Assembly: GCF_004403395.1 (NCBI RefSeq)
Contig: NZ_SOGN01000049.1
Coordinates: forward strand, 1 to 64,000
Direction: 5' to 3'
DNA from: Cryobacterium cheniae
GTDB lineage: Bacteria; Actinomycetota; Actinomycetes; Actinomycetales; Microbacteriaceae
DNA: 64,000 bases
Shown here piece by piece: positions 6,536 to 35,623 of the stretch. A program made the position numbers and the translations under genes. Position 1 is the first letter of the stretch; each line of letters starts with the position of its first letter. Under the pieces are notes generated by a model, which worked only from the letters and a program-made list of their open reading frames with translations, was not told where the DNA came from and ran no database searches.

Positions 6536-8077
6536 ATGTCCCCGGTGGAAATCACCCCGGAGTTCAATCCACTGCGTTCACCGAACGACTACCGTCTGAA
6601 TCGCATCGCGGGGCCCAGCAGCCTCGTGATCTTCGGCGTCACCGGTGACCTGTCGCGGAAGAAACTCATGCCGGCCGTCTATGACCTCGCCAACCGCGGT
6701 CTTCTTCCGCCGGGTTTCGCGCTCGTCGGATTCGCCCGCCGCGACTGGACCAACGAGGACTTCATGGCGGTCGTGCACGACTCCGTCAAGGAGTACGCGC
6801 GCACCGAGTTCAACGAGGACGTCTGGGCCCAGCTGGCTGAAGGCATCCGTTTCGTGCAGGGGTCGTTCGACGACGCCGCGTCGTTCCAGCTGCTCAAGGA
6901 CACCATCGCGCAGCTGGACCGGGCGCGCGGGACGATGGGCAACCATGCGTTCTACCTGTCCATCCCGCCGAAAGCGTTCCCGCAGGTCACGGAGCAGCTC
7001 CGCCGCTCCGGCCTGGCCGAGCAGACGGACGGGCAGTGGCGCCGGGTCGTGATCGAGAAACCGTTCGGCAGTGACCTGCAGACCGCGCGCGACTTGAACG
7101 CCGTGGTCGAGTCGGTCTTCCCGCCCGACTCGGTCTTCCGCATCGACCACTACCTCGGCAAGGAGACGGTTCAGAACATCCTGGCCCTCCGGTTCGCGAA
7201 CCAGCTCTACGAACCGATCTGGAACGCCAACTACGTCGACCACGTGCAGATCACCATGGCCGAGGACATCGGCGTGGGCGGACGGGCGGGCTACTACGAC
7301 GGCATCGGCGCCGCCAGGGACGTCATCCAGAACCACCTGCTGCAGCTGCTGGCATTGACCGCCATGGAGGAACCCATCTCCTTCGACGCGTCCGACTTGC
7401 GGACGGAGAAGGAGAAGGTCCTCGCCTCCATTCGGCTTCCCGATGACCTGGCAACCGGCACGGCCCGCGGCCAGTACGCCGGTGGCTGGCAGGGCGGCGA
7501 GAAGGTCCGGGGTTTCCTGGACGAGGACGGGATGGACCCCGAATCCCTCACCGAAACGTACGCCGCGCTGCGGCTGACCATCGAGAACCGCCGCTGGTCG
7601 GGCGTGCCGTTCTACCTGCGTGCGGGCAAGCGGCTGGGCCGCCGGGTCACCGAGATCGCAGTGGTCTTCAAACGAGCACCGCAGCATCTCTTCGGCAAGG
7701 GGAACTCCACACCGCTGGGCGAGAATGCCCTGGTCATCCGGGTTCAGCCCGACGAGGGTGTCACCATCCGGTTCGGCTCCAAAGTTCCCGGCGCCGGTAT
7801 GCAGGTGCGCGACGTGACGATGGACTTCGGTTACGGCCACGCGTTCACCGAGGCCAGCCCGGAAGCCTACGAGCGGCTGATTCTCGACGTGCTCCTGGGC
7901 GATCCGCCTCTCTTTCCACGGCACGAAGAGGTCGAACTGTCCTGGAAGATCCTCGATCCGATCGAGGAGTTCTGGGCGAAGCAGGGCCAGCCGGAGCAAT
8001 ACCGTCCGGGAACCTGGGGTCCTGCCTCAGCCGATGAACTGCTGTCCCGCGATGGCCGACACTGGAGACGCCCATGA
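6536..8077 (+). CDS. zwf: Glucose-6-phosphate 1-dehydrogenase
   Basis: Catalyses the first oxidative step of the pentose phosphate pathway, producing 6-phosphogluconolactone and NADPH. The 513 residues are full length. The dinucleotide-binding GVTGDLSRKK is at 34-43. The substrate and catalytic motif RIDHYLGKE is at 202-210 and holds the catalytic histidine. GAAGGAG precedes the ATG. The last four bases (ATGA) overlap opcA, the assembly factor for this enzyme. Confidence 0.97.
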   Translation: MSPVEITPEFNPLRSPNDYRLNRIAGPSSLVIFGVTGDLSRKKLMPAVYDLANRGLLPPGFALVGFARRDWTNEDFMAVVHDSVKEYARTEFNEDVWAQLAEGIRFVQGSFDDAASFQLLKDTIAQLDRARGTMGNHAFYLSIPPKAFPQVTEQLRRSGLAEQTDGQWRRVVIEKPFGSDLQTARDLNAVVESVFPPDSVFRIDHYLGKETVQNILALRFANQLYEPIWNANYVDHVQITMAEDIGVGGRAGYYDGIGAARDVIQNHLLQLLALTAMEEPISFDASDLRTEKEKVLASIRLPDDLATGTARGQYAGGWQGGEKVRGFLDEDGMDPESLTETYAALRLTIENRRWSGVPFYLRAGKRLGRRVTEIAVVFKRAPQHLFGKGNSTPLGENALVIRVQPDEGVTIRFGSKVPGAGMQVRDVTMDFGYGHAFTEASPEAYERLILDVLLGDPPLFPRHEEVELSWKILDPIEEFWAKQGQPEQYRPGTWGPASADELLSRDGRHWRRP

Positions 8078-9042
8078 TCGTCGATCTGCCCAACACCACC
8101 ACCTCCAAGATCTCGAAGGCCCTGGTGCGCATCCGTGAGGAAGGCGGTGCCGTGGCCCTCGGCCGGGTGCTGACGCTGATCATCGCGTCCACCATGGGCC
8201 GCGAGGAAGAGGCCATCGAGGCCGCGAACGACGCATCCCGCGAACACCCCATGCGCGTGATCGTGCTGTCGACGATGGACCAGGACGCCACGGCCTCCCC
8301 GCTCGCCCCCCGGGTTGACGCGGAAATCCGCGTCGGCGGCGACGCGGGCGCCAGCGAGGTCATCGTGCTGCGCGCCTACGGCGAGGCCGCCAGCGACCCG
8401 GAAAGCCTCGTCACGGGTCTGCTCCTGCCCGACGCCCCCGTCGTGGCCTGGTGGCCCGGTGTGGCGCCGGCCGTGCCCGCGGATTCTCCCCTCGGGCGCA
8501 TCGCCCACCGACGCATCACGGATGCCTCCGCGCAGCCTGACCCCCAGGCCGCACTGCACCACCTGTGCAGCTCGTACCGTCCCGGCGATACGGACTTCGC
8601 CTGGACCCGCCTCACCCTGTGGCGCGCCCAGCTCGCGGCGGTCCTCGACCAGCCGCCCTACCTGCCCGTGACCGCGGTGCAGGTGTCCGGCGCCGCGGAC
8701 TCGCCGTCGACGACTCTGCTCGCCGCCTGGCTCGCCCTGCAGCTGCAGATCCCCGTCGACTACGCGTTCACCACGGGCCCGCTGTCCCACGGCATCCGGA
8801 GTGTGCACCTCACGCGCTCCGCCGGGCTCATCTCGCTCGAGCGGGACGTTCCCGACGTCGCCAGACTGACCCAACCCGGCCAGCCCGTGCAGGATCTCAC
8901 CCTCAAGCGACGGAGCCTGCGCGACTGCCTCAGCGACGAACTGCGCCGGCTCGACCCCGATGAGCTGTATGGTGAGGTCATCACGCGCGGCCTACCGCAC
9001 CTTGACGATGTGGTCGCAGAACAAGACGAAGGACGACCGTGA
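8074..9042 (+). CDS. opcA: Glucose-6-phosphate dehydrogenase assembly protein OpcA
   Basis: OpcA is needed for full Zwf activity in actinobacteria and cyanobacteria; it has no known catalysis of its own. The 322-residue product starts MIVDLPNTTTSKISKALVRI, typical of actinobacterial OpcA. It overlaps zwf by ATGA and pgl by GTGA, which suggests stoichiometric, coupled translation. No signal peptide or membrane segment is visible. Confidence 0.93.
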   Translation: MIVDLPNTTTSKISKALVRIREEGGAVALGRVLTLIIASTMGREEEAIEAANDASREHPMRVIVLSTMDQDATASPLAPRVDAEIRVGGDAGASEVIVLRAYGEAASDPESLVTGLLLPDAPVVAWWPGVAPAVPADSPLGRIAHRRITDASAQPDPQAALHHLCSSYRPGDTDFAWTRLTLWRAQLAAVLDQPPYLPVTAVQVSGAADSPSTTLLAAWLALQLQIPVDYAFTTGPLSHGIRSVHLTRSAGLISLERDVPDVARLTQPGQPVQDLTLKRRSLRDCLSDELRRLDPDELYGEVITRGLPHLDDVVAEQDEGRP

Positions 9043-31664: not shown

Positions 31665-31686
31665 ATTCTGATGCAGGTGTTGTGAG

Positions 31687-31772
31687 CCGGTGTGGCGGAA
31701 TGGCAGACGCGGAGCACTCAAAATGCTTTGTTCGCAAGGACGTGTGGGTTCGAGTCCCACCACCGGTACCAA
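31687..31772 (+). tRNA. tRNA-Leu (anticodon CAA)
   Basis: 86 bases including an encoded CCA. The acceptor GCCGGTG pairs with CACCGGT (one G-U at the end) and the D-arm is GGCGGAATGGCAGACGC. The anticodon loop CTCAAAA gives CAA, reading UUG. A long variable arm, the mark of type II leucine tRNAs, and a T-arm GTGGGTTCGAGTCCCAC follow. It stands between pdtaR and an accessory-looking cassette; tRNA 3' ends are common integration sites, but no second copy of the 3' end was found nearby. Confidence 0.95.
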
Positions 31773-31824
31773 CACCCCAGACCGAAATCCCTACTGGGAC
31801 GGGCTATTTCGCCTCTCTCCCGAA

Positions 31825-31863
31825 CTCGGTCCTGGCTCAGTTTTGCCTCGGTCCTGGCTCAGT
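31825..31863. repeat. 17-bp direct repeat overlapping the HTH gene stop
   Basis: CTCGGTCCTGGCTCAGT occurs twice (31825-31841 and 31847-31863) with a 22-base period. The second copy contains the stop codon of the HTH gene. The repeat lies 53 bases downstream of the tRNA and is unrelated to the tRNA sequence. Confidence 0.75.
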
Positions 31864-32338
31864 CCTGAGCGGGCCGAGGCTCGGCACCGCCCTGCATGTC
31901 TTCCTCCAGGAGCGCGGTGATCGACCGCAGCGTCTCCGGAGACACATCCCCGAGCGTTCGTGCGGCGAAGTTGACGACTCGCTGGGCGCGGAGGCTCTTC
32001 ACGAACGCCAGCTGGGAGTCGACGCGTTCCGGGAGGTCTCCGTCGGAGCCCAGCAGGTATTCAGGGGGGATGCGGAAGAACTCGCCGATGCCCACGAGCA
32101 GGTCGATATCGGTCACGAGGGGTCCGTCCCCCGTGATCATGTAGGCCCAGCGGGCACGGGACAACGACAGGCCCCGAGCCTGGAGCCCCGCCGCGATCTG
32201 CTTGTAGGTGTGCGGCGTGTTGCCCTCGGCGACGACGACGTCGAGCAGGAGGTTGAGCTTGCGTGCCAGCTCGCGCTGCGGGCTGATCGATTCGCCGGGC
32301 GTGCTGGGCCTTCCGTCGGCTAAGCGCTGGTCAATCAC
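31859..32338 (-). CDS. EspR-like helix-turn-helix regulator
   Basis: 159 residues. After a short polar leader the HTH region spans about 23-98, with ARKLNLLLDVVV, TYKQIAAGLQ as the likely first helices, and FRIPPEYLL closing the domain. The C-terminal half (101-150, ERVDSQLAFVKSLRA, FAARTLGDVSPETLRSI) is helical and probably dimerises. This is the layout of actinobacterial EspR-type XRE regulators. GTG start overlaps the stop of the membrane-protein gene (GTGA). It is last in the three-gene cassette and is the likely reader of the operator at 33925-33973 (inference). Confidence 0.8.
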   Translation of the reverse strand: MIDQRLADGRPSTPGESISPQRELARKLNLLLDVVVAEGNTPHTYKQIAAGLQARGLSLSRARWAYMITGDGPLVTDIDLLVGIGEFFRIPPEYLLGSDGDLPERVDSQLAFVKSLRAQRVVNFAARTLGDVSPETLRSITALLEEDMQGGAEPRPAQD

Positions 32339-33378
32339 GATGTGTGGTCCTGTCGGGGTGTCGCTGAACGGGCAAGGGTGGTGACCATCGGGGCTGCGGC
32401 AGGGACCGCCCGAACGTGGTCCTCGACGACGTCGATCAGCATCCGCTCGGATGCCGCCAGGTTCTGGCCGGGATCGAGGAGCAGGCTGTCCCGAACCTCG
32501 ACATAGCGCCGGTACAGGTGAGCACCGGGAGACCGTACGAGGAGCAGCCCCGGACGCGAAAGGTGCAGCTCGATGCTGAGCTCCGGGGAGTCTGCCACAA
32601 GGCGCTCCCACAGCGGGGTGATCCGCCAGAGCAGCGCCCGATCGCGAACGGTCTTCCGTGACCAGAGGACCCCGTCAGCCATGGCCGTCAGCCCCAAACC
32701 CAGGCCGAGACCGATGGGAGCCGTAGCGAGAGCGATGTTGTAAAGAATGCGCGGCCAGCCCTCGAAAACAAAGTCCGGGTTGAAAAAGGCTTCGGTTACG
32801 CTCGCCAGGCTGATGGTCGTGTAGGCCAGTGCCCCGAGGCAACCGAAGACCACGAGAGCCAGGGACACCCGAGTGATCAACCGACGCTGATTGCGCAGGT
32901 CGGACGCACATGCCCACCCCACCGAAACGGAGAAGAGTGCGATCGCAATCCACGTGGTGGCCGAGTAGGCTGCGAAATCCCAGCGATTCGGGAATGACTC
33001 GTGGATCTGGTCTCGAAATCGCCAGTCCCCGCCGAAGAACAGGACGGCCTGGGCGGCCACGATTGCGGCGGTGACGACGGCGGTCAGTTTTTTTCGCTGC
33101 CGGGTGAGACCACCGACCGACACTGCCTCCTGCACGATGCCGTCCAGGAGGCCGATGGCGACGATCGCTGTGGCATGAAAGATGAAGTAGGTGACGTTGT
33201 CCCCGCCGAGCAGCTTTTCCACGGCGTCGTACACGACGTGAGGCTGCAAGGTCATGGTCGTGGCGAAAGCAACCAGTGCCCAGAAGAGGCGGTGACGACG
33301 ACCGCCCAGCACGGACGGCAGGGAGAGGGCTACGGCGATCCAGATGAGCGCGCACACCGTCAGGAGGATGATCTGCAT
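32335..33378 (-). CDS. Seven-helix membrane protein, MAB_1171c-like (DUF6545-like tail)
   Basis: 347 residues. About seven hydrophobic helices occupy 1-225 (first at 1-22, last near 200-225). A cytoplasmic C-terminal region of about 120 residues follows, with LWRITPLWERLV and the charged HLYRRYVEVRDSLLL. That tail pattern resembles the family annotated as 'MAB_1171c putative transporter', which I recall occurring next to HTH and ImmA/IrrE-like genes in actinobacteria. Transport has not been shown for the family to my knowledge. ATG 33378 overlaps the upstream stop (TGATG); a GTG one codon earlier is also possible. Confidence 0.75.
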   Translation of the reverse strand: MQIILLTVCALIWIAVALSLPSVLGGRRHRLFWALVAFATTMTLQPHVVYDAVEKLLGGDNVTYFIFHATAIVAIGLLDGIVQEAVSVGGLTRQRKKLTAVVTAAIVAAQAVLFFGGDWRFRDQIHESFPNRWDFAAYSATTWIAIALFSVSVGWACASDLRNQRRLITRVSLALVVFGCLGALAYTTISLASVTEAFFNPDFVFEGWPRILYNIALATAPIGLGLGLGLTAMADGVLWSRKTVRDRALLWRITPLWERLVADSPELSIELHLSRPGLLLVRSPGAHLYRRYVEVRDSLLLDPGQNLAASERMLIDVVEDHVRAVPAAAPMVTTLARSATPRQDHTS

Positions 33379-33872
33379 CACAGCACCCGGCCGAAACCGG
33401 TGCGGGGGCCGTGGGCCGCGTCCGCATTGTCGCGCAGCATGATCAGTGCCAGCCGGTCGCCGATCGCCTCGGCCAGGGCTTCCTGCTCATCGGTGAAATT
33501 GCTGCGGGACAGCGCGTACGCGATCGAGTCCAGCGGGATGAGCGGAGTGAGCAGCGCGATCCGCTCGGCGGACACCAGCTGTTTCTCGTGCCGCAGGATC
33601 ATGTGGCCGAATTCGTGGTTGATGAACTGCTGCCGATGAACGACTGAGTCCGTCGGGGCATGGTGGATGCGCTCGAACTCCTCCCCCGCGACTTCGATCC
33701 ACAGCCCGCAGACTCCGGATTCGATCAGGCGCGGACTGGCCGCCCGGATCACGATCGCTTTGCCGCGCAGCCCTTCCATGTGCTGGTGCAGCTTCTCGGC
33801 GGTCAGCGGACGCGGGAGTTCGAGGGCGGACACCAGCTCCCGCGCCCGTTCGGTGCGTGCTTCGTAGTTCAC
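33378..33872 (-). CDS. ImmA/IrrE-like zinc metallopeptidase
   Basis: 164 residues with a zinc-peptidase motif HEFGHMILRHE (HEFGH at 86-90). An EALAEAIGDRLAL helix near 131-143 can supply the third, glutamate ligand. In ImmA/IrrE proteins this fold cleaves a partner HTH repressor or acts as a sensor. There is no fused HTH and no signal peptide. First gene of the cassette, starting at GTG 33872 after a GGAAGGGGGG-type ribosome site. The neighbouring EspR-like protein is the natural candidate partner (inference). Confidence 0.8.
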   Translation of the reverse strand: MNYEARTERARELVSALELPRPLTAEKLHQHMEGLRGKAIVIRAASPRLIESGVCGLWIEVAGEEFERIHHAPTDSVVHRQQFINHEFGHMILRHEKQLVSAERIALLTPLIPLDSIAYALSRSNFTDEQEALAEAIGDRLALIMLRDNADAAHGPRTGFGRVL

Positions 33873-33924
33873 GTCCTGCCCCCCCTTCCGCGCCGACGCC
33901 CCGTGCGCGGACGGGACGTGACAT

Positions 33925-33973
33925 TAGACATGTCCAACAGGTGCTAGCCTGAAACCCTGGTTGGACATGTCTA
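33925..33973 (-). promoter_or_regulatory. Large perfect inverted-repeat operator of the cassette
   Basis: TAGACATGTCCAAC (33925-33938) is repeated as its exact complement (33960-33973) across a 21-base spacer; the centres are 35 bases apart. Each arm contains the palindromic core ACATGT. On the minus strand, TAGACA of the right arm (-35-like), 16 bases, then CAGGCT (-10-like) could be the cassette promoter, so bound protein would cover it. The likely binder is the EspR-like regulator; EspR-family proteins are known to bind separated sites. Confidence 0.7.
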
Positions 33974-34125
33974 CGCTACCGGGTCGGGGGACCCGCACAC
34001 GCCACAGGCCGTCCGGTCGCGCTCCGTTCAGGAGTGTTCACGCGCACAGCCTCATGGGCGACACTGAAGGGGAACAGGGTGTCGCCCGGAGGCGGTGGGT
34101 GCAGCACGAAACTTGCGGCACGAGG

Positions 34126-34159
34126 AAGCCCCGCCACCCGAAACCGGGAGGCGGGGCTT
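34126..34159. terminator. Hairpin terminator downstream of pyk
   Basis: AAGCCCCGCC-A-CCCG pairs with CGGG-A-GGCGGGGCTT around a short AAA-type loop, 18 bases after the pyk stop. The T-rich tail (TTATTTTC) is on the plus-strand side, so it may also stop plus-strand read-through. Confidence 0.7.
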
Positions 34160-34177
34160 ATTTTCGTTCAGGCGGCG

Positions 34178-35623
34178 CTAGCTCTTCGCGTAGGCCGGGT
34201 GAACTTCATTGTGCGCATCGCCGACGCGGTGAACACGGATGTCGTTCGTGGAACCCGCGATTCCGGGAGGGGAACCGCTGATGACGACGACCTTGTCACC
34301 GAGCTGGGCCAGGCCCTGGCCGAGCAGGATGTCATCGACCTGACCGAACATGGCGTCCGTGTGGGTGACGCGGTCCACCAGGTAGGTCTGGATGCCCCAG
34401 GTGAGGGCCAGGCGACGACGGATGCCGGGCTCCGGGGTGAAGGCCATCATGGGGATCTTCGAACGCAGACGGGACATCCGCCGTGCCGAGTCACCGGACT
34501 CGGTGAAGATGCACAGGAACTTCGCTTCGACGAACTCGGCGACCTCGATGGCGGCGAGGGTGATCGCACCACCCTGGGTGCGGGGCTTGTTCGTCAGCGG
34601 AACGATGCGCTCCAGACCGTGGTCCTCGGTCGACGCGACGATGCGCGCCATCGTCTGGACCGTGACGACGGGGTATTCACCGACGCTGGTCTCACCGCTG
34701 AGCATGACCGCATCGGCGCCGTCGAGTACGGCGTTGGCGACGTCAGACGTCTCCGCGCGCGTCGGCACCGGGCTGTGGATCATGGACTCGAGCATCTGCG
34801 TCGCCACAATGACCGGCTTGGCCATGCGGCGAGCCAGCTCGACCGCGTGCTTCTGAACGATCGGGACGGCCTCGAGCGGCAGCTCGACGCCGAGGTCGCC
34901 TCGGGCGACCATGATGGCGTCGAACGCGTCGACGATGCCTTCGAGGTTCTCCACGGCCTGCGGCTTCTCGATCTTCGCGATCACGGGAACGCGACGGCCT
35001 TCTTCAGCCATGATCTCGTGCACGCGGGTGATGTCGGCGGCGTCGCGAACGAACGACAGCGCGATCAGGTCCGTGCCGAGGCGGAGGCCCCAGCGCAGGT
35101 CGGCCTCGTCCTTTTCGGACAGGGCCGGCACGTTGACCGCTACACCGGGCAGGTTGATGCCCTTGTTGTTCGAGACAGGGCCGGCGACGATGACCGTGGT
35201 CGTCACGACGGTGTCGTTCGTGGCGACCACCTCGACCTTGACCTTGCCGTCGTCGATCAGCAGGAAGTCGCCCGGCTTGACGTCCTGGGGCAAACCCTTG
35301 TACGTGGTGCCGGAGAGTTCCTTGGTGCCCAGGATTTCTTCCGTGGTGATCTTAAAGATGTCTCCGACGGCCAGTTCGTAAGGGCCGCCCTCGAACTTTC
35401 CGAGTCGGATCTTCGGCCCCTGCAGGTCGACCATGACAGCGACGGCGCGACCGGAGTCGTTGGCGGCCTTGCGCACATTCGCATAAACACCCTCGTGGAC
35501 TTGATAGTCCCCGTGGCTGAGGTTCATCCGGCAGACGTCGACTCCGGCATCGATGATGGCTCGAATCTGGTCGTAACTAGACGCTGCCGGCCCGAGGGTG
35601 GCAACAATTTTGGCGCGTCTCAT
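34178..35623 (-). CDS. pyk: Pyruvate kinase
   Basis: Makes pyruvate and ATP from phosphoenolpyruvate. 481 residues. RMNLSHG (32-38) and the active-site stretch MVARGDLGVELP (about 236-247) are present, and the C-terminal allosteric domain is complete. ATG at 35623 with GGAGA upstream. Last gene of the 30-kb minus-strand run. A 109-base gap separates it from gltD, with a small TCACTG-GAT-CAGTGA hairpin (35714-35728) just after the gltD stop. Confidence 0.96.
   Translation of the reverse strand: MRRAKIVATLGPAASSYDQIRAIIDAGVDVCRMNLSHGDYQVHEGVYANVRKAANDSGRAVAVMVDLQGPKIRLGKFEGGPYELAVGDIFKITTEEILGTKELSGTTYKGLPQDVKPGDFLLIDDGKVKVEVVATNDTVVTTTVIVAGPVSNNKGINLPGVAVNVPALSEKDEADLRWGLRLGTDLIALSFVRDAADITRVHEIMAEEGRRVPVIAKIEKPQAVENLEGIVDAFDAIMVARGDLGVELPLEAVPIVQKHAVELARRMAKPVIVATQMLESMIHSPVPTRAETSDVANAVLDGADAVMLSGETSVGEYPVVTVQTMARIVASTEDHGLERIVPLTNKPRTQGGAITLAAIEVAEFVEAKFLCIFTESGDSARRMSRLRSKIPMMAFTPEPGIRRRLALTWGIQTYLVDRVTHTDAMFGQVDDILLGQGLAQLGDKVVVISGSPPGIAGSTNDIRVHRVGDAHNEVHPAYAKS

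Follow-up and report, generated by a model that had tools for sequence, protein, structure and literature searches.

A chromosomal protease, membrane protein and regulator trio in Cryobacterium cheniae: probable descent from plasmid cassettes and a proposed membrane-gated repressor switch

The window analysed here is a 64,000-nucleotide stretch of the actinobacterium Cryobacterium cheniae (NZ_SOGN01000049.1, positions 1 to 64,000; contig 52 of genome G000). It carries a trio of genes in the order PEP-MEM-HTH, all on the minus strand: PEP (33378..33872), the first gene, encodes a 164-residue ImmA/IrrE-like zinc metallopeptidase recognized from its open reading frame, its HEFGH motif and an alignment of homologues; MEM (32335..33378), the second, encodes a seven-helix membrane protein with a helical cytoplasmic tail, DUF6545/MAB_1171c-like by profiles and a structural model; and HTH (31859..32338), the third, encodes a 159-residue EspR-like helix-turn-helix regulator recognized from matches to EspR structures. 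The junctions are TGATG and GTGA overlaps, and our reading of open reading frames and tRNAs confirms the layout given in the initial annotation, three overlapping genes with a tRNA-Leu(CAA) alongside. That annotation took the trio for a tRNA-linked, membrane-coupled sensor that might lift repression by proteolysis; the ImmA-like protease/HTH pair with its membrane partner stands, upheld by conserved linkage and a conserved zinc site, while the role of the tRNA does not. No literature on this gene set was found among open PMC papers, a coverage that excludes subscription papers and preprints. What is new here is the operator of the cassette, the mobile relatives that share it, and the exchange as a unit of the membrane part of MEM.

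The zinc-binding HEFGH motif of PEP occupies residues 86-90 (33603..33617, minus strand), and E131 (33480-33482, minus strand) is a candidate third zinc ligand from the alignment. H86, E87, H90 and E131 are invariant in 63 of 63 aligned rows (62 PEP homologues and one ArdC-like relative, collected by profile, so that very divergent forms could have escaped) and again in 39 of 39 rows of a second PEP alignment (A3); the initial annotation had rested its protease on such a site being kept among homologues, and all 62 keep it. Eleven of 39 family members match Peptidase_M78 (PF06114; best E 1.2e-5), and the window PEP has no match to that family at E 0.01; a PEP profile run against solved structures gave nothing credible (best E 0.077). 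PEP shares two hallmarks of the ImmA/IrrE peptidases, an HExxH motif with a downstream acidic residue and a partner gene for an HTH regulator.

MEM shows seven main hydropathy peaks, and its predicted structure (mean predicted local distance difference test score 77.3, predicted template modelling score 0.64) has seven membrane helices followed by a helical cytosolic tail, in agreement with the seven-helix protein with a long cytoplasmic tail first described. It scores 32.2 bits against PF20182 (DUF6545; gathering cut-off 24.4) over residues 246-304, and 96.2 bits against NF042915, the MAB_1171c family, below the curated cut-off of 100, a relative of that family over residues 9-301. In a fold search most of the best matches are to seven-helix receptors and rhodopsins, with scores that the arrangement of a helical bundle can by itself attain; no transporter is among the best 50 matches listed, which carries no weight against a transporter role. 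It is nevertheless unlikely, in our judgement, that MEM transports an envelope or signal compound, with PEP maturing or degrading the cargo and HTH merely autoregulating: the NCBIfam name of the family ("putative transporter"), the enzyme genes that follow MEM in many relatives, and a MAB_1171c mutant of Mycobacterium abscessus that makes about half the biofilm and has a cefoxitin minimum inhibitory concentration of 4 versus 16 (as given in an excerpt of PMC8707978) would all suit a transporter, but PEP heads an operon containing a DNA-binding regulator, its N-terminus is non-hydrophobic as judged by eye, and the fold matches are mostly receptors, albeit at a level attainable by any helical-bundle arrangement. 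The mutant phenotype neither supports nor excludes a membrane gate.

Residues 24-131 of HTH align with EspR chains 3r1f, 4ndw, 3qwg and 3qf3 (E 1e-7), as expected of the EspR-like regulator originally named. A trio-type HTH is present in 44 of 57 Cryobacterium genomes (row count), and a 45th holds only more distant paralogues.

Upstream of PEP lies a perfect 14-nt inverted repeat (33925-33938 and 33960-33973), unnamed in the initial annotation though within the range it covered. The distal arm is operator-like site 1 (33960..33973), which has the same or a variant site in pyk-clade relatives; the proximal arm belongs to operator-like site 2 (33924..33938), in which 33924-33937 is an exact copy of TTRRRCATGYYYAA, the motif as generalised across lineages. 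The Cryobacterium form is TTAGACATGTCYAA with close variants; the Arthrobacter-type plasmids L113 and L114 carry TTGGACATGTCYAA and TTAGACATGTCYAA; hydrolase-type cassettes of other Microbacteriaceae have the form TTGAGCATGCTCAA; and a paralogue in the same genome has a variant inverted pair, TAGGCATGTCCA. In 965,465 bp (76 fetched stretches, some of them near-identical) there are 24 exact copies of TTRRRCATGYYYAA, with 0.033 expected from dinucleotide composition; all lie within 1.1 kb of a called cassette gene, and 23 are intergenic, the L004 copy falling inside a PEP whose start was called too far upstream. The first genes of loci L001-L023 and the window (L022 being from Arthrobacter) have the motif upstream with at most one mismatch in 19 of 23 cases and with two mismatches in one, the site of L007 sitting further upstream; two HTH-only loci lack it. 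Exact copies precede 12 of 48 other first genes, one of these being the divergent ArdC-like gene of L157. Among other upstream regions, 12 of 447 carry the motif with at most one mismatch, all of them bordering a cassette (eight belong to divergent prim-pol, ArdC-like or similar neighbours, three adjoin a Cryobacterium PEP, and one precedes an MpaB-type gene heading the L113 cassette), and four control regions carry it at two mismatches. Paired copies stand 66-69 bp apart in L153, L157, L160 and L161. As far as sequence comparison goes, these counts show a putative operator specific to these cassettes.

The perfect 12-nt palindrome TAGACATGTCTA tells the same story on a genomic scale: it occurs in 17 of 57 Cryobacterium genomes, of which 14 have it at the trio promoter, and a reversed-pattern control occurs in none. 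Of the remaining three genomes, two have it in coding regions and one, that of the window, before an HNH-Excalibur gene. A wide regulon was rejected, perfect off-promoter 12-mers in three of 57 genomes being about what a hand-made composition estimate (near 2) predicts. The Excalibur site (L063:6695-6706) is a perfect TAGACATGTCTA 34 nt before a gene for a GmrSD_C and Excalibur protein (6741-8084); three close orthologues (L085, L086 and L090) have a version with two or three mismatches in the same place, and it is missing from most of 30 orthologue loci, so it may be either a target or a chance occurrence.

The spread of the operator bears on a further possibility, that the trio is an immunity device in which the chromosomal HTH represses incoming plasmids or elements bearing the operator, the exchange of MEM membrane parts described below being an arms race with the signals of those elements. 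The chromosomal and two Arthrobacter-type plasmid operators are near-identical (TTAGACATGTCYAA versus TTGGACATGTCCAA, TTGGACATGTCTAA and TTAGACATGTCYAA), and one species retains HTH alone (L016), as such a device might; but few genomes have the perfect 12-mer anywhere else than at the trio promoter (three of 57, two of the sites coding, with looser matches sought in the genome of the window only), the operator is gone from the HTH-only locus, and PADLOC gave no match, and we regard immunity as improbable. The PADLOC anti-phage models matched none of the three trio proteins at E up to 1, and we dropped a known defence system as the identity of the trio. We likewise dropped a phage origin, since a phage collection queried with HTH, the sole trio member tried there, gave no match at E 1e-5, and PHROGs gave none for any of the three window proteins at E 0.01.

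The initial annotation held that its proposal would suffer if the three families were rarely adjacent elsewhere; adjacency proved regular. Twenty of the 23 loci from the HTH search (L001-L023) carry the full trio in the order PEP-MEM-HTH, the exceptions being L005, a truncated contig with part of MEM and HTH, and L016 (C. gelidum) and L022 (Arthrobacter), with HTH only. A PEP search in a sample of 299 Microbacteriaceae genomes matched 30 genomes spread over 17 of 85 genera. Twenty-five further PEP matches from Microbacteriaceae (L151-L175, two of them second systems of Cryobacterium genomes) were examined together with flanks of about 6 kb. In 24 of them PEP adjoins MEM, an arrangement seen in the gene calls of 22 and through tblastn in L158 and L162; 23 have HTH, called as a gene in 19 and detected through tblastn in four, in one of which it is only partial; and L172 is not a cassette. 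The MEM family matched 22 of 296 actinobacterial genomes, eight above the cut-off, and in 15 wider actinobacterial stretches (all 15 over-cut-off MEM matches plus one weaker) PEP adjoins MEM in 12 and HTH lies within eight. One weak PEP match, in genome G195 (L053), comes with neither MEM nor HTH in the short stretch around it. Relatives differ in the gene that follows MEM (an alpha/beta hydrolase, MpaB-type oxygenase, cytochrome P450, flavin adenine dinucleotide enzyme, amidase or amidohydrolase), and the Cryobacterium trio has no such enzyme gene.

Several variants of the arrangement were met in passing: i) in one species PEP is split across two overlapping frames (L019:4488-4983), by frameshift or assembly error; ii) L114 (pACHL01) has one HTH, then two tandem PEP-MEM pairs and an MpaB-type oxygenase; iii) in L118, a Streptomyces clavuligerus plasmid, PEP-MEM adjoins a gene annotated as an LxmA-leader ribosomally synthesized and post-translationally modified peptide, a possible peptide signal; iv) HTH stands alone beside metH in C. 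gelidum (L016/L258); and v) L259 has a PEP-HTH pair without MEM.

Protease-regulator pairs also invite comparison with toxin-antitoxin modules, HTH being the antitoxin, PEP the toxin and MEM its target or modulator. Makarova et al. list COG2856-Xre pairs among toxin-antitoxin-like modules (in an excerpt of PMC2701414), and one Streptomyces homologue is annotated as a toxin; yet two-gene modules do not typically have a conserved third gene or paired operators, HTH can persist alone, and PEP and HTH occur without MEM in L259, which leaves this explanation very unlikely.

Many relatives of the trio adjoin genes of mobile elements. Plasmid records with an HTH relative number 76, of which 33 are typed as conjugative and 12 as mobilizable. 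In a large Microbacteriaceae group the cassette has the order HTH-PEP-MEM-hydrolase, and genes of prim-pol or ArdC-like type run divergently from it, with DUF2637 and ParB-type genes after them; L151, L160, L161 and L162 also have TrwC relaxase-type genes nearby. Mobile, Rep or Par-type genes (we infer the labels Rep and MobC) lie within about 6 kb of 17 of 24 Microbacteriaceae cassettes, near none of the 23 loci L001-L023, and nowhere in the window, in whose 64 kb 13 queries for cassette-neighbour and mobile-element genes matched no gene at E 1e-5. The operator is common to the cassette and the divergent mobile-element genes in relatives such as L153-L162 and L175, and not in the window. The genome of the window has a second cassette on contig 58 (L250, L251), ordered HTH-PEP-MEM-hydrolase; genes of TraG/VirD4 type and ParA-like genes lie near it, and it appears to sit on a plasmid or element. 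Cassettes of the contig-58 type with Rep- or ParA-like neighbours were also seen in five other Cryobacterium genomes (L252-L254, L256 and L257). The analogy to ICEBs1 drawn in the initial annotation is strengthened, because many relatives have genes for conjugation, replication or partition as neighbours, and some of them a shared operator as well.

In a concatenated tree, rooted at the midpoint and with FastTree supports, a single clade (1.0) unites the chromosomal Cryobacterium trios and is nested among plasmid and element cassettes; the sister of that clade is the Cnuibacter plasmid cassette L119 with the near-identical L170 (0.99), which has the same PEP-MEM-HTH order and no hydrolase. The trio of the window is thus probably, on the evidence of sequence, a fixed and stripped chromosomal descendant of a plasmid cassette. 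With no element genes around it, we do not class it as the regulator of an integrative and conjugative element. Nor is a role for the tRNA supported. The tRNA-Leu(CAA) (31686..31771, plus strand; tRNA call and locus comparison) lies on one side of the trio, outside the system, and a gene labelled pyk (34178-35623), a name carried over from the initial annotation, on the other. Cryobacterium loci at this tRNA were obtained for 30 of 57 genomes: in seven the trio separates pyk from the tRNA, 16 lack the trio and have pyk immediately next to the tRNA, and seven have neither arrangement in reach; in L001-L023, metH is beside the trio or HTH in 15 loci and pyk in five; and no direct repeat of at least 10 nt is shared by 31741-31860 and 33874-34178. 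A tRNA-anchored integrative element was therefore rejected, and with neighbours so varied and no insertion repeat the tRNA is an incidental neighbour.

The membrane part of MEM has a history of its own. In five of 190 Cryobacterium trio pairs, those with the closest PEPs (89-91% identity), MEM residues 1-240, the transmembrane and putative sensor part (32659..33378, minus strand, delimited by pairwise and tree comparisons), are only 46-52% identical, and the cytosolic stretch 241-305 is 74-97% identical; L002 and L003 are the converse case, with a membrane part at 95% and PEP at 83%. The best single low-identity segment spans operon positions 517-1216, 501-1170 and 504-1223 in three pairs, where MEM starts at 495 and residue 240 ends at 1214; in the two other pairs it extends until about where MEM ends. 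In the approximately unbiased (AU) test the trees of PEP and of the membrane part are mutually rejected (p 9e-7 and 1e-42), and the cytosolic stretch rejects both (AU p 8e-4 and 2e-6). Twenty-one sequences fall into seven membrane-part classes at 65% identity, and within such classes the ratio of nonsynonymous to synonymous substitution is well under 1 in five pairs. The transmembrane part of MEM thus appears to be swapped between relatives as one block, and in three pairs the breakpoints coincide with the edges of that domain. Divergence through hidden paralogues that were lost differentially is formally admissible, but it predicts no breakpoints at a domain edge. In 21 other cassettes no such exchange was seen, and PEP and membrane-part identities run in step.

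This exchange suggests a wider possibility that we entertain tentatively: MEM may be a bacterial seven-helix receptor of exchangeable, pherotype-like specificity that gates an intracellular protease-repressor switch, its membrane domain being traded between species by recombination while protease, tail and repressor stay in place; the signals may be produced or eliminated by enzymes of other cassettes (hydrolase, oxygenase, P450 or amidase); plasmids may use the switch to time their functions; and Cryobacterium may keep a stripped copy to listen to plasmids or to its own kind.

The interpretation we favour, at a probability of roughly 0.6, is that the trio is a fixed, stand-alone descendant of a Micrococcales plasmid or element cassette, working as a membrane-gated protease-repressor switch. 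HTH would bind the paired CATG-centred palindromes and repress the promoter of its own operon, to judge from footprinting; the membrane part of MEM would sense a variable signal and relay it through a long seventh transmembrane helix and the cytosolic tail to PEP; and activated PEP would cut or otherwise disable HTH, so that the operon is expressed. For these four steps, repression, sensing, protease activation and cleavage, the analogue is ICEBs1 of Bacillus subtilis, in which the repressor ImmR is cleaved by the protease ImmA, whose proposed activator is RapI (as set out in an excerpt of PMC6540685). In several mobile relatives the same operator precedes divergent replication or anti-restriction genes, and the switch there would therefore time element functions; the window copy lacks those genes.

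A number of observations weigh against this interpretation. Neither Pfam nor NCBIfam gave a family match for the window PEP at the thresholds applied, and the predicted structure of this protein is poor (pLDDT 53), too poor for a fold search to be made with it; relatives of MEM carry a transporter name, as noted above. The loci tested had also supplied the queries for mobile hallmark genes, and these queries find such genes in only one of the 15 wider actinobacterial stretches and in four of eight plasmid stretches, so the mobile link is shown for the Micrococcales only. The motif was not seen upstream of the Cnuibacter plasmid cassette, the sister in the concatenated tree, nor in L163-L169, L171, L173, L174 or the cassettes of Streptomyces and Mycobacterium. 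A tree of HTH alone joins the Cnuibacter cassette to the contig-58 type and places the Arthrobacter HTH-only gene inside the trio side.

Comparison with known systems sharpens the proposal. Like ICEBs1 ImmR/ImmA with RapI-PhrI, the trio has an HTH regulator adjoining a small zinc protease and palindromes before the operon, several mobile relatives share an operator facing element genes, and an extra component would gate the protease; unlike it, the gate would be a seven-helix protein encoded in the operon rather than RapI, the regulator is EspR-like, the host is an actinobacterium, and the window copy stands without element genes. COG2856-Xre pairs and IrrE of Deinococcus (again from an excerpt of PMC2701414) likewise link an HExxH protease to an Xre-type regulator, but as pairs or fusions, whereas the trio has a conserved membrane third gene. 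MEM carries DUF6545 and is related to the MAB_1171c family but falls short of its cut-off, and that family is named a putative transporter; HTH resembles EspR over residues 24-131, but would be a local autoregulator of its cassette, whereas EspR is a nucleoid-associated regulator in Mycobacterium tuberculosis.

A recurrent and unexplained actinobacterial gene set, a MAB_1171c/DUF6545 protein with an ImmA-like protease and an EspR-like regulator, thereby gains a concrete and testable job, membrane-gated control of a repressor with a predicted operator. The exchanged membrane domains of MEM are natural chimeras that would serve in finding ligands, and the Cryobacterium copies may illustrate how a plasmid control switch turns chromosomal.

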